Made by a program: the position numbers and the translations under genes | Shown: positions 26,811 to 58,196 of the stretch, in pieces | How the letters are laid out: every line of letters starts with the position of its first letter | Position numbering within the stretch: the first letter of the stretch is position 1 | The notes under the pieces: generated by a model | Told to the model about the DNA's origin: nothing | Databases searched by the model: none | The model's input: only the letters and a program-made list of their open reading frames with translations | DNA from: Pyrobaculum ferrireducens | Lineage (GTDB): Archaea > Thermoproteota > Thermoprotei > Thermoproteales > Thermoproteaceae | Assembly: GCF_000234805.1 (NCBI RefSeq) | Contig: NC_016645.1 | Span: forward strand, 2,146,391-2,210,390 | Length of the DNA: 64,000 nt | Direction of reading: 5' to 3'

Positions 26811-26916
26811 CCAGCTCCGCGCCTAGCGTCGTCAAGAATTTTAACCTTGTTTGTACTGTGGATCGGGCTGGACTGCCGTGGATGCGGCTGGATGAGGGGC
26901 CCGCCCGCGGCCGAGT

Positions 26917-27351
26917 CTACATCTTTACTGCCTGTAGCTTCATGCCGCCTTCCAGCCACCCCTCTGGGTGGTACCAGTTCTTTACAATTCTGTAGCCGCA
27001 GTGGATGAGGAGCCTACCCAATCTAGTGGCTTCGGGCGGCTCTCCCCGCTGGAGGGCTTGGAAGGTTTGTAGGTCGTCTACGTATTCTGCATACAGCACG
27101 TCGCCTGGCTCCATGTGTCGGTGGAGTACGCAGTACACGTGGCGCTCCCACTCCGTGGCTATATACCTGGGGTTTATGTTGAAGACCTCGGCCCACGGGC
27201 CGTAGTAAGGCGGCCTCCCCGTGAAGATCTTTACGTGGCAGAGGAGGTCCTGGCCTATGTAGAGCTCTGCGTTATACTCCTCTTTAAATCTGCCCTTTTT
27301 AAACAGGGCGCGTAGGGGTGAGAAGGACTGGGGGGTGAGTTGGCTAAGCAC
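26917..27351 (-). CDS. DUF1122-like protein
   Basis: 144 residues from GTG 27351, which overlaps the end of the upstream 72-residue gene by eight bases. Segments such as YYGPWAEVFNI, EPGDVLYAEYVDD and NWYHPEGWLEGG match my memory of the DUF1122 family, a small archaeal/thermophile group possibly related to acyltransferase folds. It is cytoplasmic. The pattern of conserved Trp, Tyr and His suggests a ligand site. Biological role unknown. Confidence 0.65.
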   Translation of the reverse strand: MLSQLTPQSFSPLRALFKKGRFKEEYNAELYIGQDLLCHVKIFTGRPPYYGPWAEVFNINPRYIATEWERHVYCVLHRHMEPGDVLYAEYVDDLQTFQALQRGEPPEATRLGRLLIHCGYRIVKNWYHPEGWLEGGMKLQAVKM

Positions 27352-43923: not shown

Positions 43924-44622
43924 ATGGACATAGCGCTCTTCACGGACTACGACGGGACGCTGGTGCCGCCGGAGGAGGTTAGGAGGGGGGGCGCCCTGCC
44001 GGCGGAGGTTGAGGAGGTTCTGAGGGAGCTCGCCAGGCACATCCCACTCGCCGTGGTGACCACCAAGGACTGCGGCTTTGTCATGCAGAGGGTTCCCTTC
44101 GCCTCGGCGTACGCCTGTATAAACGGTATAGAGATACGCGCCGGCAGGTACGTCGCGGTCGCCGCCGACCTCAACCACTCGGCCGTGTCGGAGGTGTACC
44201 AGCTCGCGTCTCGCCTAGACGCCTATCTAGAGCCCAAGAGGACTGGGAGTGGCGAGCTGGCGGGCTTTACAGTGGACTGGCGCGGCCGCGCGGAGTCCCC
44301 CAAGGGTCTGGGCGACGTCGTGGTGGAGGCCGAGAGGCGGGGGCTCAAGGTGGTTAGGTACTCCCGCCACCCGTTTCTGGACGTGTATGGGTCGGCTGTC
44401 GATAAGGGGGACGCGGTGCGGGTACTCAAGGCCCTCCTCGGGGTGAGGCACGTGGTGTATATGGGCGACAGCGAAAACGACCTACCTGCGTGGAGGGAGG
44501 CCGACGTGAAGATACTGGTTAGAAACAGTTTGAACCGCGGCTTCGCCGTACCTGGCGCAGTGGCTGTGGAGTACAGAAACCTGGTGTCGTATCTAACGGA
44601 GGTCTTGAAAAACTTTAGATAA
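43924..44622 (+). CDS. HAD family sugar phosphatase (Cof/MPGP-like)
   Basis: 232 residues from ATG 43924, 26 bases after TTAAAAC (43898). HAD motif I DYDGTLVPP near residue 8, motif II VVTTKD near 45, Lys in DKGDAV and motif IV MGDSENDLPAW near 180. The C2-type cap between motifs II and III fits trehalose-6-phosphate, sucrose-phosphate or mannosyl-3-phosphoglycerate phosphatases. Position after treT and the sugar importer suggests disaccharide phosphate hydrolysis. Confidence 0.82.
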   Translation: MDIALFTDYDGTLVPPEEVRRGGALPAEVEEVLRELARHIPLAVVTTKDCGFVMQRVPFASAYACINGIEIRAGRYVAVAADLNHSAVSEVYQLASRLDAYLEPKRTGSGELAGFTVDWRGRAESPKGLGDVVVEAERRGLKVVRYSRHPFLDVYGSAVDKGDAVRVLKALLGVRHVVYMGDSENDLPAWREADVKILVRNSLNRGFAVPGAVAVEYRNLVSYLTEVLKNFR

Positions 44623-44740: not shown

Positions 44741-45661
44741 GTGGATAGCTGGATTTCTGAGCTTCGGGACATCCTTATCCACTCTTTGGAGAAGTCTTGG
44801 CTTCCGTTTCCCGTCGAGGCCGGGATTTGCGAGTCGTGGAAGCGGGGACTTGAGTCTGACCAGGGATCTGGTACGGTTTTCTACACGTCGTGTATGTACC
44901 ACCTCGCCCCCGTTATTGAGAAGGCGGTTGAAAACCTTGAGAAGTTCGGCGTTACAAGGGGGGGTCTGAGAAGTAGATTAGCGGGTGTGGTGGCTAGGGC
45001 GGCTGGGCAGCTACTGGTGAGGCCCGACGAGTCAGAAATCCAACGGGCCGACGAAGTTGTTAAGAAGATTTACGGCTTATTGAAGAGGAGGGGTGTAAGA
45101 ATTAGGCTACTGGAGAGGGAGGTCTACTCCGGCGCGTTGCTGTATGAACTGGGGCTGGAGAAGGACTTCGCGGAGTACGCCCAGAGGGTGGCTAGGTTTT
45201 TCAAAGAGGCGGGGGTGAGGGAAATAGTCACGGTGGACCCGCACACCCACTACATTCTTGAGAAAGTCTACCCGAGGTACGTGCCCGACTTTGACTTTAA
45301 GGTGCTTAGCTACATGGATTTGATAGACAGTGGCGGCGTTGCTGTTAAAAACTTCGCCATACACGACTCGTGTCTCTACGCGCGGTTCCTCGGGAGGTAC
45401 GACGTCGTTAGGAAGATCCTCTCCGCTGGGGAGCCCGTCGAGCATCCGTACTACACGGGGAGGGATACATCGGGTTGCTGCGGCGGGCCGATTGAGTCGC
45501 TGTTTCCGGATGTGGCGAGGAAGGTGGCGCAGATCAGGGTGAGGGACCTCGCCAAGTTGTCGAGAGACGTCGTCGTGCAGTGCCCAATCTGCTACGTGAA
45601 TCTGAAGAGGGCATCAAACGGAGAGGTGAGGCTATACTACCTACCGGAGGTGTTGCTATGA
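44741..45661 (+). CDS. CCG-domain (Hdr/LutA/GlcF-type) iron-sulfur redox protein, copy 1
   Basis: 306 residues from GTG 44741, 28 bases after TTAAATAG. The C-terminal cysteine-rich domain has HDSCLYARF near 208, SGCCGGPIE near 246 and CPICYVNL near 285, the C-CCG-CxxC pattern that binds a special 4Fe-4S cluster in HdrB, GlcF and LutA. The N-terminal half has YTSCMYHL but lacks a second CCG, so that domain is degenerate. It overlaps a two-cluster ferredoxin gene by four bases. A paralogue is at 52016. Likely passes electrons from the 2-hydroxyacid oxidase to a carrier. Confidence 0.82.
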   Translation: MDSWISELRDILIHSLEKSWLPFPVEAGICESWKRGLESDQGSGTVFYTSCMYHLAPVIEKAVENLEKFGVTRGGLRSRLAGVVARAAGQLLVRPDESEIQRADEVVKKIYGLLKRRGVRIRLLEREVYSGALLYELGLEKDFAEYAQRVARFFKEAGVREIVTVDPHTHYILEKVYPRYVPDFDFKVLSYMDLIDSGGVAVKNFAIHDSCLYARFLGRYDVVRKILSAGEPVEHPYYTGRDTSGCCGGPIESLFPDVARKVAQIRVRDLAKLSRDVVVQCPICYVNLKRASNGEVRLYYLPEVLL

Positions 45662-45930
45662 TTGAGAAACTCATCGCCGAGGCCTCTAAGTGCGTATTTT
45701 GCGGTTTTTGCGAATTTGCATGCCCCACATATAGGGCAATTAGAATGAGGCACTTCGGCCCCAGGGGGCGTATAAACCTCATAAAGAACTTCGACGGGAA
45801 GCTGTCTAAAGAGGCCTACGAGGGGATAATGACATGTCTTCTCTGCGGAGCATGTGATCCTCAATGTCCCGCCGGCATAAAAATAACAGAAACTATCAGA
45901 GCCTTTAAAACGTATTTAATTAATATGTAG
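45658..45930 (+). CDS. two-cluster 4Fe-4S ferredoxin-type protein
   Basis: 90 residues from ATG 45658, whose ATGA overlaps the stop of the CCG-domain gene. Two cluster motifs: CVFCGFCEFACP (about 12-23) and CLLCGACDPQCP (about 60-71), the arrangement of the iron-sulfur half of GlcF/LutB/HdrC proteins. With the CCG protein before it, this makes a split HdrBC/GlcF-like module. Its 3' end abuts the convergent glcF gene one base away. Confidence 0.88.
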   Translation: MIEKLIAEASKCVFCGFCEFACPTYRAIRMRHFGPRGRINLIKNFDGKLSKEAYEGIMTCLLCGACDPQCPAGIKITETIRAFKTYLINM

Positions 45931-45931
45931 C

Positions 45932-47095
45932 CTAAAGCGTTTTCTCTCTTAACTCCATATATCCCCTATTCCCCCCTCTTTGGTAGGACAAGTCCAGCAC
46001 TTCAAGTGGGAAGTACACCTTGAGGCCGAGTTTGGACATTTGTTGTAAACATGAGGGGCTTTCGATTAAAATGCCGTCTGGGGAGAGGGCTTTGACTTCC
46101 TCCCTCTTCTTATCTAGAATTGCTTTAGCAATGTCCCGGTGTCTAAGGGGGTACATATTACCGCCTCCGCAACACACATCAGCGCTGGGTAACGGGGTCA
46201 GGACTAGGCCAGGCACTTTATACAGCGGCTTAGGCACCACGTCATGAGCTTTAGATACATTCATTAGATGGCAACTGTACTGCACCGCCAACCTCAATTT
46301 TACCTCGCCGAGGTTTCCCCTAAGATCATCTGCTATTAATTGCATTACATCTACAACTCTACGGCCGCGCATATATCTAAGGAGCTCCGCTTGACACCCT
46401 CCAGAATTGGGAACGGCTATCGTGTCTACGTGGCCTAGCTTATCGACAATTGATAAATTCCTGCGCGCCAGCTCTTGGGCCTTCTCGAACTGCCCGCTAT
46501 GTCTATACGGAGCTCCGCAACAACTAAAACGCGGCACCACGACCTCATAGCCATTCCACGTAAGTACTCTAATGGCCGCCTCAACAACGCCCCTCCTGTG
46601 ACGCCACGTCACACATTCACCAGAGACAAATAGGACAACTCTCCCCTTGACACTACCCTTTGCTTCATAAATCTTGCCAACTAAGCCAGATACATCCCCA
46701 CCTGAGACCAAGGGCTTTAGCTCCAGAGATAACGAAGCCGCCATAGGCGCTATTCTTAATCCAAGTCTTGTGTTCAATAGATTGAATAGCGGGATGTAGC
46801 GCTTGTAACTAACAGACTGCATGGCGCTTCTATGCATTTTAAAGAACTCTTCAAACACCTCGCCGTATTTAACGCCAGACGGACAGGCGGTTTCACACCT
46901 CAGGCAGTATACACAAGCGTCTAAGTACTTCAAGAGCTTGCTATCAGCCATAGCCCTCCCCTCTGCAACTGCCCTCATTAAATACAGCCTACCCCTGGGG
47001 CTATGGCCCTCAACTCCCGTGGCTAAATATGTGGGGCAAGTGGGGAGGCAAAAGCCACAGTGAACACAGCGGTAGAGCTCGTCTAAAGCACTCAT
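45932..47095 (-). CDS. glcF: glycolate oxidase iron-sulfur subunit (GlcF-like)
   Basis: 387 residues. Two ferredoxin motifs, CVHCGFCLPTCP (about 10-21) and CVYCLRCETACP (about 62-73), then two CCG regions: FSCCGAPYRHSG near 195 and VCCGGGNMYPLR near 305, ending with SPSCLQQM. This is the complete GlcF/HdrD architecture. It overlaps the upstream glcE by four bases and would pass electrons from the two flavoproteins to an acceptor such as quinone. Confidence 0.88.
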   Translation of the reverse strand: MSALDELYRCVHCGFCLPTCPTYLATGVEGHSPRGRLYLMRAVAEGRAMADSKLLKYLDACVYCLRCETACPSGVKYGEVFEEFFKMHRSAMQSVSYKRYIPLFNLLNTRLGLRIAPMAASLSLELKPLVSGGDVSGLVGKIYEAKGSVKGRVVLFVSGECVTWRHRRGVVEAAIRVLTWNGYEVVVPRFSCCGAPYRHSGQFEKAQELARRNLSIVDKLGHVDTIAVPNSGGCQAELLRYMRGRRVVDVMQLIADDLRGNLGEVKLRLAVQYSCHLMNVSKAHDVVPKPLYKVPGLVLTPLPSADVCCGGGNMYPLRHRDIAKAILDKKREEVKALSPDGILIESPSCLQQMSKLGLKVYFPLEVLDLSYQRGGNRGYMELREKTL

Positions 47096-48075
47096 GGCAA
47101 CTTACCAGGCGAAAGCACGCCATTCGGGTCAAATACGCCTTTTATTTTCTCCATCAAGTCTCTATTTTCAATATTCCACCTCTGCCGTGGCTTTAGCCAA
47201 TAAGCCTTGACTTCAGACGGCGGCGATCCCGCTAAATACATAACGCCGAGTAGCGGATAACGCACGTATTTCACGCCAGGAGGAGCCTCGGGGAGGGCGG
47301 CTGGAGGAGTCACTATCTTGACTATAGTGTTTTGAGAGAACACCTCCTCAGCCTCAGTTATTACGCTCCACCTCTCCTCTGCCTCTCTGTCGTAAAACAC
47401 CTCCCCCCGCCCAGCACTGGCCAGCCTATACTCAACCTCAGACCTAACCCCCTCAAACCTCAAGTACAAGACGCCGTCTGTCTCCACTGCGCCAACTGCG
47501 TGAAGTCTCCTCAATTCTTGCAGTGGCTTTTTCTCTGTTGCAAACACGGCTACTGTGTCTGGCAACGCGTATATGCGCATATACGCTTCTACAATAATGG
47601 CGAGAGTTCCCCACGACCCCGCCACTAACCTCTTAATGTTATAGCCGGCCACGTCCTTAACCACCGGCGCCCCAAACCTCATAAGCTCCCCCCTACCCGT
47701 GACTATTTTAACGCTGAGTAGTTGATCTCTCGGCGTCATGTAGCGGTATGCCATGGGGCCGTAGAAGTTAGTAGACAATATCCCGCCGATAGAGGATCTT
47801 CGGAATAGAGGCGGGTCAAGGGCGAGCCTCCTCCCCCTCCTCCTCAACTCTTCTTGAAGCTGTACTGCTGGAATACAAGCAGAGGATCTCACAACCATTT
47901 CCTCCTCGTCTATTTCTATCACCCTGGGCATATCCGACATATGGAGCAAGTCGTCGTATTCAACCGGCGGCCCGAGATGCGCCTTAGAGCCCATGCATAT
48001 GGGGAGCAAACGCCTCCTCTCCTTATTGGCCTCGTATATAAACTCCACGAGCTCTTCTACTGACGTGGGCCTCAT
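47092..48075 (-). CDS. glcE: glycolate oxidase FAD-binding subunit (GlcE-like)
   Basis: 327 residues from ATG 48075, whose ATGA overlaps the glcD stop. A short FAD_binding_4 protein: SACIPAVQLQEELRRRGRRLAL and RRSSIGGILSTNFYGP near 97-112 and DVAGYNIKRLVAGSWGTL near 160-177 are the nucleotide-binding segments. It lacks the C-terminal substrate domain found in GlcD, as GlcE does. Works in a complex with GlcD and GlcF. Confidence 0.85.
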   Translation of the reverse strand: MRPTSVEELVEFIYEANKERRRLLPICMGSKAHLGPPVEYDDLLHMSDMPRVIEIDEEEMVVRSSACIPAVQLQEELRRRGRRLALDPPLFRRSSIGGILSTNFYGPMAYRYMTPRDQLLSVKIVTGRGELMRFGAPVVKDVAGYNIKRLVAGSWGTLAIIVEAYMRIYALPDTVAVFATEKKPLQELRRLHAVGAVETDGVLYLRFEGVRSEVEYRLASAGRGEVFYDREAEERWSVITEAEEVFSQNTIVKIVTPPAALPEAPPGVKYVRYPLLGVMYLAGSPPSEVKAYWLKPRQRWNIENRDLMEKIKGVFDPNGVLSPGKLP

Positions 48076-49499
48076 GGGAATATCTTGCCCGGGTTCATAA
48101 GCCACTTTGGGTCAAAGGCGGTTTTTATGGCCTTCATTAACTCGATTTCTTCCTTTGTATACATCTTGGGCAACAACTTCCTCTTCATATACCCAACTCC
48201 GTGCTCCCCGGTTATAGTACCGCCGAGCTCTACGCAAGCCTCTAGTATCTCCTCCCCCGCCTCTATAGCCTTTTCTCTCTCGCCGGGTTTCCTCTCGTCG
48301 TAGAGTATCAACGGGTGGAGATTCCCGTCGCCAGCGTGGAATACGTTAGCAACTCTCAGCCCCCGCTTCGCACCGGCGGCTCTAGCTATCATGAGGGCTT
48401 CGGCGAGTTTCTTCCGAGGTATTGTGCCGTCTTCGACCACGTAGTTAGGGCCCACGTAGCCCATGGCGCCGAATGCTTGTTTTCTAGCGGCCCAGATCCT
48501 CGCGGCTATGGCCGGATCCACAACAACCTCCACTCCAACGGCGCCGCTTTTCTTTAAAACCTCCGCGACTTTAGCGGACTCCTCCGCGGCGCCAGGTGGA
48601 GACCCCTCTACTTGAATTAACAAAATGGCCTCGGCGTCTTTGGGGAGGCCAGCTGCATAGGGCCCTGACTCAATGGCCTCTACGGCCAGTTTGTCCATGA
48701 GCTCCATGGCGACCGGCACGGCACCTGAGGCAATTACTGCCGACACGGCACGGCCTGCCGCAGACAGATCGTCAAATTTCGCTATAATTGTAACCGTTGT
48801 TTCATAAGTGGGGATTATTCTCACCACAGCCTCGGCGATGAAGGCGAGAGTCCCCTCCGACCCGGTCAACAAGCCAATTAAGTCGTAGCCAGGTTGTTCA
48901 AACTCCTTACCCCCTATTCTCCTAACCTCGCCATTCGGCAGAACTATTGTGAGACCTCTTAGCTGGTTAACAGTCACGCCGTATTTAAAACACTTTACCC
49001 CTCCTGAGTTATGCGCTATATTCCCTCCAATTGTGGAAACTCTCTGCGAGCCGGGATCCGCCATGTATTGATAACCCAGATCTATGGGGTATTGGTAACC
49101 CATACGTGTGAGGTAGGAGTTTATCCAATCGTTTATAACCCCCGCCTGAACCACCGCCACCTCGTTGGCGAGGTCTATTTCTAAGATCTTGTTCATCCAG
49201 GCGGTGCTGATTATGACCCCCCCTTTGACAGGATTTGCCCCTCCGCTTAAACTAGTACCCGAGCCCCTGCCCACTATCGGGATGCCGTAGATATATGCCA
49301 GCTCAACTACTTTTGACATTTCCTCCACGGTTCTGGGGAAAACCACAGCATATGCCCTGCCCCTTATGGCTAGAGTCCCGTCTTGTTCATAAACTATCAG
49401 ATCTGCCTCCTCATGTAATACCCCCCTCTCTCCTAATAACTCCCTTGCCTTTTTAATAAATTGTTGCAAACCGCTAGGCGGAGTATGAGGGTTAGCCAT
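48072..49499 (-). CDS. glcD: glycolate/D-lactate oxidase FAD subunit (GlcD-like)
   Basis: 475 residues from ATG 49499, about 27 bases after the minus reading of the promoter at 49521-49530; a start at 49508 would add three residues. FAD site GRGSGTSLSGGA near 77-88 and GSQRVSTIGGNIAHNSGG near 145-160; C-terminal catalytic segment FHAGDGNLHP near 385 and TGEHGVGYMKR near 430. Oxidises a 2-hydroxyacid, glycolate or D-lactate; the divergent malate synthase argues for glycolate. Confidence 0.88.
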   Translation of the reverse strand: MANPHTPPSGLQQFIKKARELLGERGVLHEEADLIVYEQDGTLAIRGRAYAVVFPRTVEEMSKVVELAYIYGIPIVGRGSGTSLSGGANPVKGGVIISTAWMNKILEIDLANEVAVVQAGVINDWINSYLTRMGYQYPIDLGYQYMADPGSQRVSTIGGNIAHNSGGVKCFKYGVTVNQLRGLTIVLPNGEVRRIGGKEFEQPGYDLIGLLTGSEGTLAFIAEAVVRIIPTYETTVTIIAKFDDLSAAGRAVSAVIASGAVPVAMELMDKLAVEAIESGPYAAGLPKDAEAILLIQVEGSPPGAAEESAKVAEVLKKSGAVGVEVVVDPAIAARIWAARKQAFGAMGYVGPNYVVEDGTIPRKKLAEALMIARAAGAKRGLRVANVFHAGDGNLHPLILYDERKPGEREKAIEAGEEILEACVELGGTITGEHGVGYMKRKLLPKMYTKEEIELMKAIKTAFDPKWLMNPGKIFP

Positions 49500-49520
49500 A
49501 TTACCCACTAGAACTAATAC

Positions 49521-49530
49521 TTAAAAAATA
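49521..49530. promoter_or_regulatory. shared divergent TATA box of glcD-E-F and malate synthase
   Basis: TTAAAAAATA reads TATTTTTTAA on the other strand. ATG 49499 (glcD) and GTG 49549 (malate synthase) are placed symmetrically about 49524, so a single element may control both halves of the glycolate-to-malate pathway together. Confidence 0.5.
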
Positions 49531-49548
49531 TCTTTAGCATTTCATATT

Positions 49549-51990
49549 GTGATTGAGATAAACCCACTTGTAGTTAAAAATTACGGAGATTTGCTTGGCG
49601 TTAAGACTGTTAATAATAGGGAGGTTTCTGTTGAGGGCCTTATAGAAGAGTTGACACGTGAGTTTCGCGATGAGATAGATCGCGTTATTAAGGCCAGGAG
49701 AGAGTGGCTTAACGACAAGAGGCCTGTTAGAGTTAAAGCCGCGTTTCCCAGCTGGGATGAGAAATTTGTCGACGCCGATGGTAATGTGAGGACTTTTAGG
49801 GAAATAGTCCAGGGGCTAATTGACAACCTCCTTGGCCGGGACACGCCATTGAGGTGGGGCCTAAACTGGAACACGCCAGTGCCAGATGATCTCCACCCAT
49901 TGAAAAATCCAGGGCTTGAAATCACGGGGCCCTGGCACCCCATGAGCAGAGCAATTCACCAGATAAACGCCGATGTTGCGTCCATGATGGAGGACGAGGA
50001 GGACGCCTCGCCGGCGTGGTACGTCCCGCGGGGCTCCGGCCGCGCGGTGGCCGCTGTGTGGGAGGCGCGGAGGGTTGTAAACCGGGTTCTGCGGGGGGAC
50101 GTGCCGCAGCCGTATTACGAGGGGGGGAAGGAGTACAGGTTGAGGAAGCCGAGGGAGAGGTGGCCAACTCTTATACACCGCGTCCCCGGCCTCCACATCT
50201 TGGACTTCGACATAAGGGTAGACGGCAAGCCGGCCACGGCCATAATCACCTCTATTGTGCTCTACGCTGTTAATAACTACGACTTGTTGAAGAGGGCGGG
50301 CTCCGGCGTCTACTTCTACGTGCCTAAGGTGCAGACCGCCGACGAGGCTTTGGTTGTGGAGAAGATCCTCCGCCGCGTGGAAGACAGGCTGGGGCTGAGG
50401 CGCGGCGAGTTGAAAATCGCGATGCTTTACGAAGAGGCTAGGGCCGGCCTGCACCTACCTGTCATCTTCTGGATTTGGAGAGAGAGGCTTGTGAAGAGCA
50501 ACAACGGGCGCTGGGACTACCTCGGCTCTCTCATAGAGATGTGGAAAGACGAGGCGGTGTACCCCGACCCCCAGAACATCACCATGACGCACCCCATCAT
50601 GATGGCGTACCAGAAGTACAACGCCCTTATGTGCCTAATGGCGGGCCTCGGCAGAGACGGGAGGCTAAACGCCGGGCCGGTGGGCGGCATGGCCGCGGTT
50701 ATGCTGTACAGGCCGGACGACCCCTACCAGAGAAACCGCTTCAACGCCAGGGCGCTTAGGGCCATATGGCTGGACAAGCTTAGGGAGAGGCTTATAGGCC
50801 TCATCTTCTACACAGAGGAGCCCGTCAAAAAGGTGGCACTGAAGGATATACTAGAGGGCAAGGTGAGGGGGAGGCTGTACGACCTGTTCCGCCAGAGCTG
50901 GGTGGCGACCCCCGAGGAGTCCTACGTCAAGGCTGGGAACGAGCCGCTGAGGGCTAGTCTAGAGGAGCTACAGGCCATGATAAACAGGCCGGTTAAATAC
51001 GTGGAGGTAGACGGAGTCAAGATACCGGCTGTCGACAGCGGGTTGACAGAACAGGAGAGGGCCCTCTTCCAGAGGCTGGGTCTCATAGACGAGGCCGGCA
51101 ACATAACGCCGTGGGTAATACGCCCCGACATGCTGGACACTCCGGAGAAGCTTTTCAACAACCCAGAGCTGTGGGGCGGGAGGGATCTGTGGACTGCCCT
51201 ATACGAGCCGCCTAAGGGCGACATCACGGCCGAGCACATCCAGCACGCCTTCTACATGGCGGCTAACTACGGCTTTCAGCTCCTCAACGGCAACCTAGCC
51301 GCCGCCATAGACGACTACGAGCTAGGCCAGAGGTTTATGAATGACCTCGCCACCTACCGCATATTCTCCACCTGGCTGTGGACTCTCCTGCGCCACAAAG
51401 CCGCCGTCACGAAAGACGGCGCGTTTAAGGGGCCTGGGAGGACTAGCCTCGGAGTAATACCGGCCGAGGACCGGGTCAAGATACCCGCCGGCACGCGCTT
51501 CACCGAGGAGCTGTTTGACAAGCTGTGGGATCTCCACATGGAGTGGACCTACGCCTTCTACGACGACCTCGACCGCATAGCCGCAGAACGCGTGCTGGCC
51601 CGCTTCGCCGGGGACGTCAAGAAAATCCTAGCCGAGGCATACAGGGCTGGGCCGTTTAGATACTTGTCGCCTAGGGAGGCGGCGAAGAGAATCGCAGAGG
51701 CGGTGCGGGTTGAGGAGGTGGAGAGGGCCGTTGTGGAGAACCAGCCGAGGTTTGACAGGTCCTTCGCCCCTGTGATTATGGAGATACTAAAGACAAAGCT
51801 GAAGTCTCCAATGTATCTACAACACGGCGGCAGGATGATAATGGCGCTGTCGCCGTTACCAGATGAAGAGAGAGACCTCGTGCTCAGGGCGCTGTTCACA
51901 CCTAGAGTGGAGGTAGAGAGAATGGTCAAGGAGGGCAGGTTAAAGCCCTTTGTCCTCGAGCTGTACGACTACATACACGACATTAGATAA
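49549..51990 (+). CDS. aceB: malate synthase (archaeal type)
   Basis: 813 residues from GTG 49549, 27 bases after the TATA box. Condenses glyoxylate with acetyl-CoA to malate. It matches the long crenarchaeal type seen in Sulfolobus: EITGPWHPMSRAIHQI near 125, MMEDEEDASPAWYVP near 146, LHILDFDIRVDGKPA near 222, FYVPKVQTADEALVVE near 258 and LKIAMLYEEARAGLHL near 290 with the catalytic acidic/Arg region. No isocitrate lyase is nearby, so the glyoxylate source is probably the divergent GlcDEF oxidase. Confidence 0.88.
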   Translation: MIEINPLVVKNYGDLLGVKTVNNREVSVEGLIEELTREFRDEIDRVIKARREWLNDKRPVRVKAAFPSWDEKFVDADGNVRTFREIVQGLIDNLLGRDTPLRWGLNWNTPVPDDLHPLKNPGLEITGPWHPMSRAIHQINADVASMMEDEEDASPAWYVPRGSGRAVAAVWEARRVVNRVLRGDVPQPYYEGGKEYRLRKPRERWPTLIHRVPGLHILDFDIRVDGKPATAIITSIVLYAVNNYDLLKRAGSGVYFYVPKVQTADEALVVEKILRRVEDRLGLRRGELKIAMLYEEARAGLHLPVIFWIWRERLVKSNNGRWDYLGSLIEMWKDEAVYPDPQNITMTHPIMMAYQKYNALMCLMAGLGRDGRLNAGPVGGMAAVMLYRPDDPYQRNRFNARALRAIWLDKLRERLIGLIFYTEEPVKKVALKDILEGKVRGRLYDLFRQSWVATPEESYVKAGNEPLRASLEELQAMINRPVKYVEVDGVKIPAVDSGLTEQERALFQRLGLIDEAGNITPWVIRPDMLDTPEKLFNNPELWGGRDLWTALYEPPKGDITAEHIQHAFYMAANYGFQLLNGNLAAAIDDYELGQRFMNDLATYRIFSTWLWTLLRHKAAVTKDGAFKGPGRTSLGVIPAEDRVKIPAGTRFTEELFDKLWDLHMEWTYAFYDDLDRIAAERVLARFAGDVKKILAEAYRAGPFRYLSPREAAKRIAEAVRVEEVERAVVENQPRFDRSFAPVIMEILKTKLKSPMYLQHGGRMIMALSPLPDEERDLVLRALFTPRVEVERMVKEGRLKPFVLELYDYIHDIR

Positions 51991-51999
51991 TATATAAAA
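51990..51999 (+). promoter_or_regulatory. TATA box of the CCG copy 2-lutB operon
   Basis: ATATATAAAA overlaps the malate synthase stop codon; ATG 52016 is 26 bases downstream and is preferred over GTG 52001. Confidence 0.55.
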
Positions 52000-52015
52000 G
52001 GTGGTTAGTATTGCC

Positions 52016-52945
52016 ATGGAGCCGTCAACTAGCTGGATTTTTTCACTACGCGACTTAGTTCTGTCTTCTCTCAAGGATAGGGGCCTTCCTATCCCCGTCG
52101 ACAGAGAAATCTGTAGCAGGTGGCAACAAGGACTCCCCTCCGGCCCCAAGGAAACGGTATTGTACACGTCCTGTATGTATCAAATGACGCCGATGATTCA
52201 GAAAGCCGTGGAGAATTTGGAGAAGTTCGGCGCGACGCGGGGAGGCGCCGCGTCTAGGGTGGCCGCCGTCGCGGCGAGGTATTTCGGCGGCCTCGTCCTG
52301 AGGCCAGACAAGGAGCATCTGGAGAGGGCATACAGCATCCTGAGAAGTATCTACAACATGCTTAGGAAGAGCAACGTAGAGGTTGGCTTACTGCCCGACG
52401 AGCCCTACTCCGGGGCTCTGCTCTACGAGCTTGGGTTCGTGGAGGACTTCGCCAGCTACGCCGCCGAGGTTTATAAATACTTCGAGGAGAGGGGGGTGCG
52501 CCGGGTTATTACCGTGGATCCACATACTCAATACGTGTTGGAGAGGATCTACCCGCAGTACGTGCCGGGGTTTGATCTAGATGTGCGTAGCTACCTTGAA
52601 TATATAGACGTGTCGAGAGTCAAGGTGAAGATAAGTGGCTTTGCAATACACGACTCGTGCCTCTACGCGAGGTTCCTCGGGAAGTACGACTTAGTTAGGA
52701 GGATACTCGCCGGAGGCAACCCCGTGGAGGATCCCTACGTCACTGGGAGGGAGACTTCTGGGTGTTGTGGAGGGCCAGCTGAGTCTATCAACCCGCAACT
52801 CGCCACGAAAATTGCGCTGGGGAGGGCAAAAAAGCTCGCGGGGCTCTCCAGAACAGTCGTATCGGCCTGCCCGATATGCCTCGCCAACCTATCCAGGACC
52901 GGGATCGTAGAGGTGAGAGATCTCGCCGAGGTGGTGGAGCTATGA
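52016..52945 (+). CDS. CCG-domain iron-sulfur redox protein, copy 2 (LutA/HdrB-like)
   Basis: 309 residues from ATG 52016. Closely similar to the 44741 protein along its whole length, for example YTSCMYQMTPMIQKAVENLEKFG against YTSCMYHLAPVIEKAVENLEKFG (only parts quoted), HDSCLYARFLGKYD, SGCCGGPAE and CPICLANL. The N-terminal cysteine-rich half again has a single Cys site. It overlaps the LutB-like gene by four bases. The pair resembles LutAB of lactate utilisation, but LutC is missing. Confidence 0.82.
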   Translation: MEPSTSWIFSLRDLVLSSLKDRGLPIPVDREICSRWQQGLPSGPKETVLYTSCMYQMTPMIQKAVENLEKFGATRGGAASRVAAVAARYFGGLVLRPDKEHLERAYSILRSIYNMLRKSNVEVGLLPDEPYSGALLYELGFVEDFASYAAEVYKYFEERGVRRVITVDPHTQYVLERIYPQYVPGFDLDVRSYLEYIDVSRVKVKISGFAIHDSCLYARFLGKYDLVRRILAGGNPVEDPYVTGRETSGCCGGPAESINPQLATKIALGRAKKLAGLSRTVVSACPICLANLSRTGIVEVRDLAEVVEL

Positions 52946-54084
52946 GTTGGGAAGTGGCTATCGAGCGGGCCAAGTCATCCATTGTGCCGAGGACGTACGA
53001 CGTTTTGAAGAGATATCCCTACCTCCAAGAGATTAGGAAACAGGTTAGAGAGGCTAAGGAAGAGGTGGTGAAGAACCTCGACCACTACATCGAGGAGACT
53101 AGAAAAGCGGTGGAGAGGATAGGAGGCCGCTTCTACCTCGCCGGCTCAGCCCAGGAGGCCACCGAAATTGCGGCGAAGATTGTGGGAAGCGGAAAAGTCG
53201 TGGTTATGAGCAAGAACAACGTGGCAGAGGAGACTAAGTTACGTGAGAGGCTCGAGGCCGCTGGGAACGAGGTCTGGGAGACAGATCTCGGGGCGTTCCT
53301 CGTGCAGATCGCCGGGGAGGAGCCGTCACACATACTGGCGCCCGCCGTGCATCTCACCAAGGAGAGGGTTGCCCAGGTGCTTAGGGAGAGGCTGGGCATG
53401 GCGGTGCCCCCCGACGCCGTTGAGATAGCCGCACGAGTCAGGGAGTTCCTCCGGGATAAGTTCATCAAGGCAGACGTGGGCATCACAGGCGCCAACGCAG
53501 TTGCGGCTGACACAGGCGCCGTGGTGCTTGTGGAGAACGAGGGCAACATTAGGATGACCTCCGTGCTCCCGCCGGTCCACATAGTCTACGACGGGGTTGA
53601 CAAAATCGTGCCGACTCTCGTAGTCGCCCAGCTGGTGGCCGACCTCCAGTCGGCATACGCCGGCCTGTACCCCCCCACCTACATGAACATATCCGCCGGC
53701 CCCAGCTCCACCGCCGATATAGAGATGACCAGAGTCTCGCCGGCGCAGGGGCCGAGGGAGTACCACATGGTGCTTGTAGACAACGGCAGGAGGGCCGCCG
53801 CCCGCGACCCCGTCCTCTGGGAGGCGTTGCTGTGCATAAGATGCGGCCGTTGCCACCTCCACTGCCCCGTCTACTGGGCCCTCGGGAAGGAGTTTGGAAA
53901 GCCGCCCTACACCGGCCCCATGGGCGTGATGTGGACAGCTGTGACCCGCGGGATAGAGGAGGCGGGCCCCCACGCGTTGAAATGCGTCCACGCTGGGAAC
54001 TGCAGGGAGGTGTGCCCCATGGGTATAGACATCCCCAAAGTAATACATGAAGTTAGGGTTAGATACCTGAAGATTACTAAATAA
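52942..54084 (+). CDS. lutB: LutB-like protein: LUD domain plus iron-sulfur clusters
   Basis: 380 residues from ATG 52942 (ATGA overlap). N-terminal LUD domain with VGITGANAVAADTGAVVL near 190-208 and GNIRMTSVLPPVHIV near 215-229. C-terminal cluster I CIRCGRCHLHCP near 318-329; the second site reads KCVHAGNCREVCP near 357, where one Cys of the usual CxxCxxC is Ala. Partner of the CCG copy 2 protein. Possible electron carrier for lactate or glycolate oxidation. The 3' end overlaps the convergent exchanger gene by eight bases. Confidence 0.85.
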   Translation: MSWEVAIERAKSSIVPRTYDVLKRYPYLQEIRKQVREAKEEVVKNLDHYIEETRKAVERIGGRFYLAGSAQEATEIAAKIVGSGKVVVMSKNNVAEETKLRERLEAAGNEVWETDLGAFLVQIAGEEPSHILAPAVHLTKERVAQVLRERLGMAVPPDAVEIAARVREFLRDKFIKADVGITGANAVAADTGAVVLVENEGNIRMTSVLPPVHIVYDGVDKIVPTLVVAQLVADLQSAYAGLYPPTYMNISAGPSSTADIEMTRVSPAQGPREYHMVLVDNGRRAAARDPVLWEALLCIRCGRCHLHCPVYWALGKEFGKPPYTGPMGVMWTAVTRGIEEAGPHALKCVHAGNCREVCPMGIDIPKVIHEVRVRYLKITK

Positions 54085-55051
54085 CACCAGTTAGGAAGCG
54101 GCTAATGTAGTAAACGTAAGCTAACAAGCCTACGGGAGCAGAGAGGCCAAAATAGCCAAATCTCCAAACAATTATTATTTCTATTATAGAAACCACAATA
54201 GCAAGCAGAAGTGCTAGAGCGGCCGCCTCACCCAGTGTGTAAACACCCAACGCCATAGCTACACCTGGATAAAAAGTGCCGTATAGAGCTTTTTCACCAA
54301 TCATGGCACTAACTCCTTCATTATCTTGCCCCTTAAATAAGAATATCAAACCAACAATTGATTCAGGTATTACCGAAGCTATTGGGATAATTATCACGGC
54401 AAGAGCCGTCTTATCGACGCCTAGGGTGACTCCGAGCTCTACAATCCCAGCTACCAAAAACTCTGCACCGGTTGCAATGCTCAGAATAGCAACGAAAGTC
54501 TGCAACAGAGAGTTTTTTAGCCAAAGACCGCCCTCAGGCTCCTCAACCTCTTCTTCGCGTAGCATGTATTTTGCATATATTACGTAGAGAACCAGTAATA
54601 AAACGCCATATGCTCTACCTATTACGCCGTATTTTTCAGGATGTAGAAAAAGTATAGGAAGAAGAGGTAGCGTAAACGCTATGAGAGGAACAGCAATATC
54701 ACGCGTGACGTGGGGTATCTTGTTTCTTCTTTTCCCGGCCACCCACGCACTAAACGTGGTGAGTAGAACCACGGGATATATAATGGTAGCCGCCATAAAC
54801 GGCTGAGCAACTATCGACCCCCATGCTACCTCAAGCTCTCCTTGTAGAATAGCAACGGTAAACACAGCCAGTTCGGGAGCTGAGGTTATTAATGGAGCAA
54901 AAATAGCAGCGACGCCGCTCTTCGCCCGTTGATAACGCCACGAAATGTAGTGCACTAGTTGCTCAATTAACACACCTGACAAAAAGACAAGAACTACTCC
55001 AATTAAGACACCTAGAGGACCTGCCATTGCGAAAATCGAGGTATTGCTCAT
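54077..55051 (-). CDS. CaCA-family cation/proton or cation/Na+ exchanger
   Basis: 324 residues from ATG 55051, exactly 27 bases after TTTAAAAC (55078-55071); a frame to 55096 would include that box. About ten helices with two alpha-repeats: APLITSAPELAVFTVA near 52-67 and IIPIASVIPESIVGL near 220-234, each with the acidic ion-binding residue. A charged cytoplasmic loop (REEEVEEPEG) separates the halves. Probably Ca2+ or Na+ antiport. The gene is more A+T-rich than its left-hand neighbours. Confidence 0.85.
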   Translation of the reverse strand: MSNTSIFAMAGPLGVLIGVVLVFLSGVLIEQLVHYISWRYQRAKSGVAAIFAPLITSAPELAVFTVAILQGELEVAWGSIVAQPFMAATIIYPVVLLTTFSAWVAGKRRNKIPHVTRDIAVPLIAFTLPLLPILFLHPEKYGVIGRAYGVLLLVLYVIYAKYMLREEEVEEPEGGLWLKNSLLQTFVAILSIATGAEFLVAGIVELGVTLGVDKTALAVIIIPIASVIPESIVGLIFLFKGQDNEGVSAMIGEKALYGTFYPGVAMALGVYTLGEAAALALLLAIVVSIIEIIIVWRFGYFGLSAPVGLLAYVYYISRFLTGVI

Positions 55052-55270
55052 GCGGGAGGTAAGAATAAAGGTTTTAAATTTTTCTAGGATAGACACAAAG
55101 ACAAATATTACATAGTTTAATATCTATACAGCATAAAAATTTAAATAAATTCTAAAAATAAAAGAGTTTATTAATTATCAATTCAATCTTCAAATATATA
55201 TATATATTGTTTTTATAGGTAAGCCACAACTTTAGCAGTAATACTTAAATAATTAAAATATCTATATTCT
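55052..55270. other. A+T-rich intergenic region with (AT)7 run
   Basis: Between two divergent transporter genes. It contains the exchanger promoter (55071-55078), poly-A/T stretches, a 14-base ATAT run at 55194-55207 and the TATA region ACTTAAATAATTAAAA before ATG 55271. I see no ORF or RNA gene in it. Confidence 0.6.
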
Positions 55271-56734
55271 ATGGCAGAAGGAAAAAACACTCAATTATTG
55301 GGAAAACTTCCAATTGAGGTAGAGAATAAGATTCCCACACCAGAAGAAGTATTTAAAATCAGCAAGATAGGTATCAGAGAAAGGGTACTTGTTCTGTATG
55401 GATCAGCGCTGATAGCCCTCGGCGTGAGTGTCGGTAGCGGCGAATTTCTACTGGGGCCCGCCCAAGCAATTAAATATGGATTAGTGCTGGCGTGGCTTGT
55501 CCCAATTGGTGCCTTTCTACAAGCTATGTACATGTACAGCTGGGCAAAGCTTACAATAGCCACGGGAGAAACACCGATAACTCTCATGTTTAGAATAGCC
55601 ACTTGGGCTGGCTGGCTGGGAGCACTCGGTGTCCTAGTGGGAAACATATGGGGAGGGTGGGCCTATAACTCAGCTGTGGCGCTGGCAGGCGGAGTTATGA
55701 GGAAGATACCGGGTCCACAGGATGTCGTGGCTGTGGGTATTGCGGGTGCCTCACTGCTGATTCTCACTTTCGTGATTTTAGCCCTAGGTAGACGCATAGC
55801 TAGAACTCTTGAGATTTTCAACTGGATAGATTTAGGATTTATATTTACATCTTTCATAGTACTTGCGATTATCCTAATTCCGCCGCAGATTTGGGGGGAG
55901 CTAGCCGCGGGTCTGATCTCTTTTAAGATACCTCAAGGCATCGATCCTGTCCAGTTGGCCGCGTGGTGGGGATATATAGGGCTCGCCACGGGTCTAAACT
56001 ATTACGCAACTGCGTGGTTTAAAGACAAGGGATTTGGAATGTCTTCTCTAACGGGGTACATACCGGCTTTGATTGGCGGGAAGAGGATAGAGGTGTCTGC
56101 GTGGGGGAAGATTTTCAAACCTACGCCAGAAAACATGAGGATTTTCAAACGCTGGACAAATCTAGCGCTGGAGGAGCTAATTGTAATATTTTTCCTGGGG
56201 GCAATTATAGGAATGCTTATTCCAATGTCGCTGTCTTACGCCATAGCGAGAGGCTTTGGATTGACTCTTTCGTGGAACTTGCCCATGTGGTTAGCGCTTG
56301 CTTTAGAAAAGCTTTGGGGTTACTGGGCCTATTGGTGGGGGATTTTCGTGGCCGTATTTGTCTTGTTTAAGACACAGCTAGGGATTGTAGACGCTGTTGT
56401 CCGTAACATGGCAGACGCCGCTTGGAAATTCGACAATTTGAGGAAATTCTTTAGAAACGATATTAGATATCTATACTACCTTCTTGCCGCAGTGTATTTA
56501 GCATGGGCTTCAATAGCTTTCGTAGCCACAGCTCCAGGAGTGTTGATCTTAATCTCGGCCAATATGGCTAATGCGGGCGCTCTGTGGGGTGTCCCATTTC
56601 TAATATATCTAAACTATAAAATGCCTAAAGAGTTTAGACTGCACTGGTCTCTAGTCATACTGAATATAATCTTTATGATTATGTGTATTTACTTCATGTC
56701 GCTATCCCTGGGAAGAGTACTAGGTATTATATAA
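55271..56734 (+). CDS. Nramp-related/APC-fold transporter of unknown substrate
   Basis: 487 residues with about eleven hydrophobic helices. The first helix has GVSVGSGEFLLGPAQA, like the GSGEW-type relatives of Nramp, but the DPGN motif that binds metal in true Nramp is absent, and helix six has no MPH motif. Therefore the substrate need not be a metal. ATG 55271 follows an A+T-rich promoter. Position next to the lactate/glycolate genes would suit a carboxylate permease, but this is inference. Codon use is visibly A+T-rich compared with most of the window. Confidence 0.7.
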   Translation: MAEGKNTQLLGKLPIEVENKIPTPEEVFKISKIGIRERVLVLYGSALIALGVSVGSGEFLLGPAQAIKYGLVLAWLVPIGAFLQAMYMYSWAKLTIATGETPITLMFRIATWAGWLGALGVLVGNIWGGWAYNSAVALAGGVMRKIPGPQDVVAVGIAGASLLILTFVILALGRRIARTLEIFNWIDLGFIFTSFIVLAIILIPPQIWGELAAGLISFKIPQGIDPVQLAAWWGYIGLATGLNYYATAWFKDKGFGMSSLTGYIPALIGGKRIEVSAWGKIFKPTPENMRIFKRWTNLALEELIVIFFLGAIIGMLIPMSLSYAIARGFGLTLSWNLPMWLALALEKLWGYWAYWWGIFVAVFVLFKTQLGIVDAVVRNMADAAWKFDNLRKFFRNDIRYLYYLLAAVYLAWASIAFVATAPGVLILISANMANAGALWGVPFLIYLNYKMPKEFRLHWSLVILNIIFMIMCIYFMSLSLGRVLGII

Positions 56735-56904
56735 AATCCTATATTTTTTCAAATTTTATGTTGATATGATTTATTTTTATTTCTGAATTAAAGTAGCAAA
56801 CCACCTTCGGAAATAATTATAAATATATTCAACATATTATAAATATACAGTTGGGACACGCCTTCTAGCAACGCAACTATAAAACATAGAAGCGATTCAA
56901 GGTA
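56735..56904. other. A+T-rich intergenic region, no gene seen
   Basis: 170 bases between convergent stops, with T tracts at 56750-56780 that could end the transporter transcript, and a 12-base direct repeat. No ORF or RNA motif was found. Confidence 0.55.
56816..56847 (+). repeat. 12-base direct repeat at 20-base period
   Basis: ATTATAAATATA occurs at 56816-56827 and 56836-56847. The 20-base period is close to two helical turns. Could be a tandem binding site or low-complexity sequence. Confidence 0.5.
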
Positions 56905-57636
56905 CTACTTCCAGCGGCTCCCTAACAAGTTCTTTAAAACGTCGAGAAGTATGTAGGCAATCTCCTCAGGCGGCAAACCAAGCCTATCGGATAGTTCCTT
57001 AACAGTGCCCTCAGCAACTTGGTAGGCCCTCCTCCTTGCCTCTACTGCTTCTTTCATACCCCCTCCATATTCAACCTCTACTAATTCTCCAGTGGTGGCG
57101 AATCTCCTCTTCACGGGGCCGGGTCTCCTCGTCCTCCCCACGTAGAGTATGGGCTTGTATTTTTCGAGCATCCAACCTCCCTCCGTGAAGTCGTCGGTGG
57201 CGTAAACAGCCTCCACCCTCCCAATGAAAATGTCGTGATCCCCACCTACGTCGAGCACAGTCTTGAGGGAGCACTCTATTACGGCTGAGGCGCCCTCTAT
57301 GGCGACACTGGGGATTTTTCTTGATGGTGTGAACTTGATGCCAGCCCTGTCGAATTTTTCTGACGCAAATCTCGCAGATACGTCCCCTAGAAGGGCCAAT
57401 GCCTGCGTCTTGGAGAAGTCGAGATAGTTCACAGTGAAGTAGCCGCTTTCCCTAACAAGGCGGTAGGTTCTCCTCTCTGGCGCAAGCACCGTCAGTAGAA
57501 GTGGTGGGTTTGTGGACACAGCGGTGGTCCACACAGCTGGCATCGCGCCGACGATCTCGCCTAGTTTAGTAGCTATAATAGGCACTGTGGCTGGGTATAT
57601 GACGTAGTGAAAAAGCTCCGGATTTACCTCCTTCAC
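56905..57636 (-). CDS. flavin reductase-like domain protein
   Basis: 243 residues from GTG 57636, whose GTGA overlaps the PfpI stop; a frame to 57672 would overlap by 40 bases. FMN-binding split-barrel features: GAMPAVWTTAVSTNPPLL near 28-45, SGYFTVNYLDFSKTQAL near 65-80 and GDHDIFIGRVEAVY near 132-145. Such proteins bind FMN and reduce flavins, iron or oxygen-linked substrates. Tightly coupled to the PfpI/DJ-1 gene, which suggests a redox or carbonyl-stress role. Confidence 0.82.
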   Translation of the reverse strand: MKEVNPELFHYVIYPATVPIIATKLGEIVGAMPAVWTTAVSTNPPLLLTVLAPERRTYRLVRESGYFTVNYLDFSKTQALALLGDVSARFASEKFDRAGIKFTPSRKIPSVAIEGASAVIECSLKTVLDVGGDHDIFIGRVEAVYATDDFTEGGWMLEKYKPILYVGRTRRPGPVKRRFATTGELVEVEYGGGMKEAVEARRRAYQVAEGTVKELSDRLGLPPEEIAYILLDVLKNLLGSRWK

Positions 57637-58196
57637 CGTGACTTGAGGAGTTTTATGAATTCTCTCATCCAAGCTGGGTTATCGGGCCAGGCCCTGGAGG
57701 TCACCAGGTTGCCATCTACTACAACCTCTTGGTCTACCCATGTCCCCCCGTTGTTTTCCACCTCAGGCCTTACTGCGATGTAGCTCGTCATTTTTCTACC
57801 TTTTACGACGCCGGCGGCGGCTAGTATGAGAGGGCCGTGGCATATTGCGGCCACGGGTTTATTTCTTTCAAAGAAGTGTCTAACAATTCTCTTCACGTCT
57901 TCGCTGGCGGCGACTCTCACGTATTCAGGCATCCTGCCGCCCGGTATCACGAGGCCGTCGTACTCCTCGGGCTTTACCTCTGATAGGGGTTTTTCTACCC
58001 ATGGGAAGTTGTAGCCGGGCTTCTCCGTGTATGTCTCCCAGCCTTGCTCAAAGTCGTGCACCACCGTCTTCAGAGTCTTTTTGCTTGGAGCCGCAACGTG
58101 CACCTCGAACCCCTCCTCCTTGAGCCGGAAGTAGGGGTAGAAGATTTCAAGCGCCTCTACGGCATCGCCGCCTATGATTAATACCTTCTTTGCCAT
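57633..58196 (-). CDS. DJ-1/PfpI family protein (glutamine-amidotransferase-like)
   Basis: 187 residues. The nucleophile elbow AAICHGPLIL near 115-124 contains the conserved Cys-His, with a Glu in DAVEALEIFYP near 12 and GLVIPGGRMPEY near 82. Family members act as glyoxalases/deglycases or peptidases; glyoxal handling would suit a neighbourhood with glyoxylate metabolism, but this is not shown. ATG 58196 follows ATATAAAT (58224-58217). It overlaps the flavin-reductase-like gene by four bases. Confidence 0.88.
   Translation of the reverse strand: MAKKVLIIGGDAVEALEIFYPYFRLKEEGFEVHVAAPSKKTLKTVVHDFEQGWETYTEKPGYNFPWVEKPLSEVKPEEYDGLVIPGGRMPEYVRVAASEDVKRIVRHFFERNKPVAAICHGPLILAAAGVVKGRKMTSYIAVRPEVENNGGTWVDQEVVVDGNLVTSRAWPDNPAWMREFIKLLKSR

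Follow-up and report, generated by a model that had tools for sequence, protein, structure and literature searches.

The pairing of a glycolate oxidase with malate synthase is already known from the glc system of Escherichia coli, which comprises glcDEFGB and glcA. The locus described here lies in a 64,000-nucleotide stretch (the window; G000:C1:2146391-2210390) of the single-contig 2.47-Mb genome of Pyrobaculum ferrireducens, and combines such a pair with two copies of a CCG-domain protein, one encoded with a two-cluster ferredoxin (FDX) and the other with the LUD-domain protein LutB. Malate synthase G is the isoform named for glycolate-grown E. coli, and the crenarchaeal malate synthase of Sulfolobus acidocaldarius has 824 amino acids (PMC3112382). 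Two lactate systems resemble the remaining genes. In Archaeoglobus fulgidus, AF0806-0811 corresponds to lctP-lldD-dld-lldEFG, and LldEFG is reported to stimulate Dld-II in Shewanella (PMC3949148). In the luo cluster of Desulfovibrio vulgaris (DVU3025-3033), mutants connect DVU3027-28 to D-lactate and DVU3032-33 to L-lactate, and DVU3027, DVU3028 and DVU3033 occur in a single activity band (PMC4481167). The preliminary description of the locus knew of no version with both types of module; this does not hold, as both of these clusters combine GlcD- and LUD-type modules (PMC3949148, PMC4481167). In the open-licence literature, no published account of this Pyrobaculum locus was found, nor any paper treating Pyrobaculum, glycolate and malate synthase together.

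The block is real and conserved, a variant of loci already known for the oxidation of glycolate and hydroxyacids, and the explanation that we favor, which taken as a whole we consider fairly probable, is a glycolate locus that also holds the parts of a broken-up ancestral electron-transfer module and has undergone an exchange of oxidases. Gene identities were assigned from open reading frames (ORFs) and Pfam and NCBIfam profile scans, which placed every previously named gene where it had been reported, although the interval holds eight genes rather than the ten counted earlier (Table 1). Rightward CCG1-FDX is followed by leftward GlcF-GlcE-GlcD and then by rightward malate synthase-CCG2-LutB. 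The locus was compared across 11 genomes of the genus (G000-G010, G000 being the genome of the window), among them P. oguniense TE7 (G002) and Pyrobaculum sp. WP30 (G008), and across 19 genomes of the family (G000-G018), some relatives being labeled Thermoproteus-type, Caldivirga-like or Vulcanisaeta-like after the groups that we take them to resemble. G006, another member of the genus, retains the whole gene order (L041), so that the arrangement is neither unique nor due to chance. As first described, GlcDEF and malate synthase diverge from a shared short region; their starts lie 40-49 bp apart, each some 25 nt from an AT-rich box near 49520-49532. The spacing is likewise compact in G006 and is 247 bp in G002.

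The reading as a glycolate locus is carried by the identity of the enzymes and by their recurrent association. GlcD, GlcE and GlcF are the best NCBIfam families of the three subunits, which are encoded together, and in the PDB GlcD best matches a protein annotated as glycolate oxidase (9qgz, 280 bits), with LctD second (241 bits). The malate synthase matches malate_syn_A in NCBIfam (128 bits) and malate synthase A in the PDB. Malate synthase is present in 15 of the 19 family genomes and in ten of these lies beside a GlcD-type oxidase, which is GlcDEF in G000, G002, G006, G012 and, with the membrane protein gene p487 in between, G010, and a different oxidase, GlcD2, in G003, G004, G008, G015 and G016. 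An independently found Sulfolobaceae metagenome-assembled genome (MAG; L037) has GlcF-GlcD divergent from GlcE-malate synthase, and in a Thermoproteus MAG (G017, L031/L094) a GlcF remnant divergent from malate synthase (L031:9396-9860, 130 aligned residues) represents decay of the same arrangement. No isocitrate lyase was found in the P. ferrireducens genome, where the sole match to the superfamily is the methylisocitrate lyase PrpB (421 bits, cut-off 354); for this genome, the earlier statement that the route does not involve isocitrate lyase is correct. Beyond PrpB, an isocitrate lyase-like protein, intermediate between PrpB and isocitrate lyase, occurs only in G002, G006 and G011 among the family genomes, that of G006 (349 amino acids, L083:1309-2355) scoring under both cut-offs. 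With the oxidase a recurrent neighbor and isocitrate lyase lacking, the glyoxylate for malate synthase would most simply come from glycolate. The proposed conversion of glycolate to malate is consistent with this pattern, isocitrate lyase being absent from most of the genomes in which the two enzymes are neighbors, and the block as an archaeal glycolate-utilisation locus appears well supported by gene content and context.

The same genes could also be read as a cluster for the utilisation of D- and L-lactate, as in Archaeoglobus and Desulfovibrio, with malate synthase as a bystander. The same types of module do stand together in those two systems (PMC3949148, PMC4481167), and DVU3027, which carries the annotation of glycolate oxidase GlcD, turned out to be a subunit of a D-lactate dehydrogenase (PMC4481167). 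However, malate synthase is the constant neighbor of the oxidase in the family, the best structural match of GlcD carries a glycolate oxidase annotation, the genome encodes no LutC (the LUD-only protein), and no lactate permease was found by Pfam among the ORFs of the block, which together make a lactate cluster unlikely. In G011 and G013, malate synthase is instead divergent from an aldehyde dehydrogenase; a role for it as a glycolaldehyde enzyme was considered and is not proven, the G013 enzyme matching MMSDH best.

Uptake of the substrate could be provided by p487, which belongs to the Nramp_1 family (129 bits, cut-off 50) and has no Pfam match and no match to a solved structure in the PDB at an E value of 0.01. 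Within the genus all four GlcDEF genomes (G000, G002, G006, G010) have it and the remaining seven lack it (chance probability 0.003), and since it occurs there only together with GlcDEF, it is likely a permease for glycolate or another organic acid. A copy with 59% identity lies beside a GlcD-FDX-CCG-LutB operon in a genome of another family (G047, L072), and the context of p487 suggests an organic acid as substrate. The NRAMP-family proteins PxpT and YcsG are needed for uptake of 5-oxoproline, and are encoded alongside an organic-acid catabolic enzyme (PMC13274462), a setting that p487 would share. No Pfam domain of a GlcA/LctP-type permease, of GlcG or of GlcC was detected among the ORFs of the block, and one Pfam scan of ten neighboring ORFs revealed no transporter common to the CCG/GlcD operons of the phylum. 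A homolog of MFS metabolite/H+ symporters before GlcD3-LutB in two Thermoproteus-type loci (L087, L088) was set aside as too unspecific to serve as a substrate clue.

The two CCG proteins are 57% identical and are true paralogs, each encoded by a gene that overlaps that of its partner, FDX or LutB, by an identical 4-nt ATGA. Each contains a single Pfam CCG domain and one canonical CCG cluster motif (C211-x34-CC-x33-CxxC in CCG1), the N-terminal half being degenerate in the alignment and without the motif. The AlphaFold model of CCG1 (predicted local distance difference test score 81.5, predicted template modeling score 0.83) gives Foldseek matches to EtfD, LutA (9a6l) and HdrB. In NCBIfam, FDX best matches the ferredoxin region at the N terminus of GlcF, and CCG1 the C-terminal part of TfrB, so that in its domains the CCG1-FDX pair closely resembles a GlcF split in two. 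LutB is the sole LUD protein of the genome. A 585-amino-acid protein that combines Fer4_8 with two CCG domains is encoded elsewhere in the genome (L082:5099-6853); it is distantly related to CCG1 and CCG2, and long frames of this kind are found repeatedly in relatives.

The preliminary description saw in these flanking copies a symmetrical, assembled system with alternative electron outlets for GlcDEF, in which CCG1-FDX would be dedicated to one substrate and CCG2-LutB to lactate. The genes do all lie side by side in G000 and in G006, as they do in G003, where GlcD2 is the oxidase. Both CCG copies are intact, the ratio of nonsynonymous to synonymous substitution rates (dN/dS) relative to G003 being 0.15 for CCG1, 0.14 for CCG2 and 0.13 for malate synthase (dS of FDX is saturated between the two genomes), which is indicative of purifying selection on CCG1; in bacteria, moreover, the LutB family is associated with L-lactate (PMC3924224). 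The distribution of the genes nevertheless renders two dedicated outlets quite improbable. Both copies are found together in only three of the 11 genus genomes (G000, G003, G006), four have CCG1 only (G002, G004, G008, G009), three have CCG2 only (G001, G005, G010) and the 74% complete genome G007 has neither. LutB is kept in all of them except G007, including the four with CCG1 only, and G010, with CCG2 only, retains FDX together with GlcD2 (L048). As genomes with a single copy thus keep LutB or FDX, the CCG copies look mostly interchangeable. In addition, GlcF already provides GlcDEF with the same domains, and FDX, CCG and LutB elsewhere share one operon with a GlcD.

In the phylogeny of the two copies, which had been suggested as a check, CCG1 forms a single clade (16 rows, support 100/98) nested within the diversity of CCG2, which is taken as the vertically inherited copy, and the symmetry of the window looks like a matter of history. 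A search of the phylum with CCG2 matched 86 of 398 genomes at 1e-20, 47 of them new, and 20 loci from 19 of the new ones were examined. Four of these loci are contiguous GlcD-FDX-CCG-LutB (L108, L109, L116, L117) and one is GlcD-ORF-CCG-LutB (L107); of the rest, ten are CCG-LutB and three GlcD-FDX-CCG, with FDX-CCG and a lone CCG found once each. Two instances of the four-gene set occur in G047, one contiguous (L072) and one with an additional ORF (L071), and the contiguous operon spans several families of Thermoproteota (L072, L108, L109, L116, L117). In Thermoproteus-type genomes, LutB is joined to another oxidase, GlcD3 (in G012, G015 and G016 by map and in G014 by coordinates), and the second CCG is joined to an FDX. 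In G019, G022, G027 and G037, the neighbor of CCG is neither FDX nor LutB but a flavin-reductase-like gene (L066:8689-10259).

The exchange of oxidases is apparent from comparison with the nearest relative, G003, whose proteins are mostly 91-97% identical. Its locus reads CCG1-FDX-GlcD2-malate synthase-CCG2-LutB (L040). The G003 genome lacks GlcDEF, and the P. ferrireducens genome in turn lacks GlcD2, which is about 32% identical to GlcD and forms a separate clade. Across the family, GlcD2 is found in six genomes and GlcDEF in six, with both in G010, a distribution that alone is not significant and fits replacement. Identity between the window and G003 is 80-96% through CCG1 and drops to 55-81% in FDX and to 58-82% in the initial ~400 nt of malate synthase, where the window is closer to G006; thereafter it is back at 91-99%. 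The best switch points lie at ~45,720 and ~49,955; informative sites of G003 versus G006 type number 259 versus 30 before the first and 8 versus 35 after it, and within malate synthase 26 versus 76 before the second and 387 versus 37 after it, the p values of these contrasts overstating significance because the breakpoints were chosen to maximise them. FDX of the window is 95.5% identical to that of G006 and 83% to that of G003, and in the initial 390 nt of malate synthase identity is 85% to G006 and 66-72% to all others compared, with G003 at background. Because the intervening segment matches G006 and the flanks match G003, GlcDEF probably replaced FDX-GlcD2 via homologous recombination, and the simplest reading is that a G006-like donor supplied the lineage with FDX, GlcFED and the 5′ end of malate synthase.

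After such a swap, CCG1-FDX might be a non-functional leftover of CCG1-FDX-GlcD2, its catalytic partner being gone and FDX lying inside the swapped segment. Yet the CCG1 and FDX frames are intact in G000, G002 and G006, the dN/dS of CCG1 is like those of CCG2 and malate synthase, and G009 keeps CCG1-FDX with neither GlcD2 nor GlcDEF and without malate synthase, all of which makes a decaying remnant highly improbable. G009 does have GlcD3, encoded in P. ferrireducens at G000:C1:229553-230869, which on a circular chromosome would be about 0.5 Mb from the block. Since CCG1-FDX is intact and G009 keeps the pair with GlcD3, this oxidase is proposed as the present partner of both CCG1-FDX and CCG2-LutB, which most likely serve it.

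In the favored explanation of a glycolate locus with a dispersed module and an exchanged oxidase, p487 would import glycolate, and GlcDEF would oxidise it to glyoxylate, with electrons passing from flavin adenine dinucleotide (FAD) to the iron-sulfur and CCG clusters of GlcF and then presumably to menaquinone. Malate synthase would combine glyoxylate with acetyl-CoA to give malate, with no need for isocitrate lyase. CCG1-FDX and CCG2-LutB would be electron-transfer subunits that go back to a GlcD-FDX-CCG-LutB operon, the ancestral form, which came apart and had its CCG gene duplicated. CCG1-FDX would formerly have served GlcD2 at this locus, until recombination put FDX-GlcFED in place of FDX-GlcD2, and both pairs would now most likely serve GlcD3, perhaps for D-lactate or another 2-hydroxyacid.

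Several points weigh against this explanation. The scores of GlcD (445 bits), GlcE (133) and GlcF (144) all fall below the NCBIfam equivalog cut-offs (568, 284 and 333, respectively), so that the three are homologs and not certified orthologs, and members of the GlcD family act on glycolate, D-lactate or other substrates, between which sequence does not decide. Five of the 15 genomes with malate synthase have no intact oxidase adjoining it (G001, G011, G013, G014, G017), the gene in G001 lying close to a contig end, and PrpB might yield some glyoxylate. GlcD2 falls outside the GlcDEF clade, and a substrate common to both is presumed. The correlation of p487 with GlcDEF comes from few, related genomes, and outside the genus G011 and G012 have GlcDEF and no p487 (best match 20 bits). 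The direction of the swap is drawn mainly from FDX and the 390 nt of malate synthase.

Table 1. Features of the glycolate block and its surroundings, in window coordinates
Feature	Position	Strand	Basis
HAD-IIB hydrolase, doubtful block member	43924-44622	+	NCBIfam
CCG1, predicted HdrB/LutA-fold protein	44741-45661	+	Pfam CCG, 33.7 bits
FDX, two-cluster Fer4_8 ferredoxin	45658-45930 (best start ATG 45658)	+	Pfam Fer4_8
GlcF, Fer4_8 and two CCG domains	45932-47095	-	Pfam/NCBIfam
GlcE, FAD-binding subunit	47092-48105	-	Pfam/NCBIfam
GlcD, catalytic FAD oxidase	48072-49508 (likely ATG start 49499)	-	Pfam/NCBIfam, PDB match
Predicted divergent promoter region, compact	49500-49548		Sequence
Malate synthase, large crenarchaeal isoform, 813 amino acids	49549-51990	+	Pfam MS_TIM-barrel
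CCG2, paralog of CCG1	52001-52945	+	Pfam; tree
LutB, LUD and Fer4_8	52942-54084 (best start 52942)	+	Pfam/NCBIfam
Na/Ca exchanger-like protein	54077-55096	-	Pfam
p487, Nramp-family polytopic membrane protein, candidate permease	55271-56734	+	NCBIfam NF037982
Recombined segment (FDX, GlcFED, 5′ end of malate synthase)	45720-49955		Identity profiles, informative sites

On the flanks, the genes for the Na/Ca exchanger-like protein and p487 are both missing in G003 between LutB and a flavin reductase gene (L040). G+C content is 43-47% over window positions 54000-58000, which include these two genes, versus ~51-60% in neighboring stretches. The upstream HAD hydrolase was considered as a phosphoglycolate phosphatase and hence a source of glycolate, and is left as doubtful at 43.7 bits to TIGR01487 (cut-off 122.75). 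It has no close solved relative, lies near the block in four genomes of the genus and is found elsewhere in G001, G002, G005 and G010. At 26864-26921 the window matches the Rfam family of the Pyrobaculum H/ACA-type sRNA PyrR210 (70.6 bits).

The clean natural swap of an oxidase cassette and the four-gene archaeal operon GlcD-FDX-CCG-LutB are the most interesting outcomes. The locus would provide a genomic case for net growth of Pyrobaculum on a two-carbon acid by a route that needs no isocitrate lyase and explain why most genomes of the family with malate synthase lack that enzyme. Archaeal LutB, usually filed under L-lactate, is suggested to be a subunit of a GlcD-type dehydrogenase, and the natural swap of GlcD2 and GlcDEF lends itself to comparison, as it separates close relatives. 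A broader and tentative proposal, which we see as possible rather than probable, is that Thermoproteota have a four-subunit 2-hydroxyacid dehydrogenase, GlcD-FDX-CCG-LutB, with a split GlcF, an integral LUD subunit and no LutC, and that in Pyrobaculum its electron-transfer subunits form a common platform on which catalytic cassettes are interchangeable, with species trading these cassettes through homologous recombination that has its anchors in CCG/FDX and in malate synthase.

Among the known systems, the glc locus of E. coli is similar in uniting the D, E and F oxidase subunits, malate synthase and a membrane permease, here a candidate only. It differs in that the malate synthase of the window is the large crenarchaeal isoform rather than G and is divergent from the oxidase genes rather than in one operon with them, the candidate permease is Nramp-like, and neither GlcG nor a GntR-type regulator is among the Pfam matches of the block. 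The malate synthase resembles the crenarchaeal type in size class and in its low similarity to isoforms A and G; unlike in S. acidocaldarius, it is linked to a glycolate oxidase in a genome without isocitrate lyase. The CCG1-FDX pair is reminiscent of HdrB/HdrC and EtfD in the predicted fold of CCG1 and in joining CCG to a two-cluster ferredoxin, but has a single canonical CCG motif, with no HdrA or membrane component among the Pfam matches of the block. With LutABC/LldEFG the block shares a LutB composed of LUD and Fer4_8 (PMC3924224), and a LutA-like fold is predicted for CCG1, and it differs by the lack of LutC and by having just one canonical CCG motif. The A. fulgidus cluster is likewise archaeal and combines a GlcD-type FAD dehydrogenase with a LUD/CCG/Fer4 module, but has a lactate permease and a full LldEFG set, and the part of its account drawn on here mentions neither malate synthase nor a second CCG paralog (PMC3949148). 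The luo cluster of D. vulgaris places a D-lactate dehydrogenase of GlcD and Fer4_8-CCG subunits beside a LUD-type L-lactate dehydrogenase; it serves lactate rather than glycolate, has a second LUD protein (DVU3032) and carries pta/ack/por in place of malate synthase (PMC4481167). Relative to both of these clusters, the Pyrobaculum block is distinguished by the lack of LutC, a CCG protein that is split and duplicated, and the presence of malate synthase.

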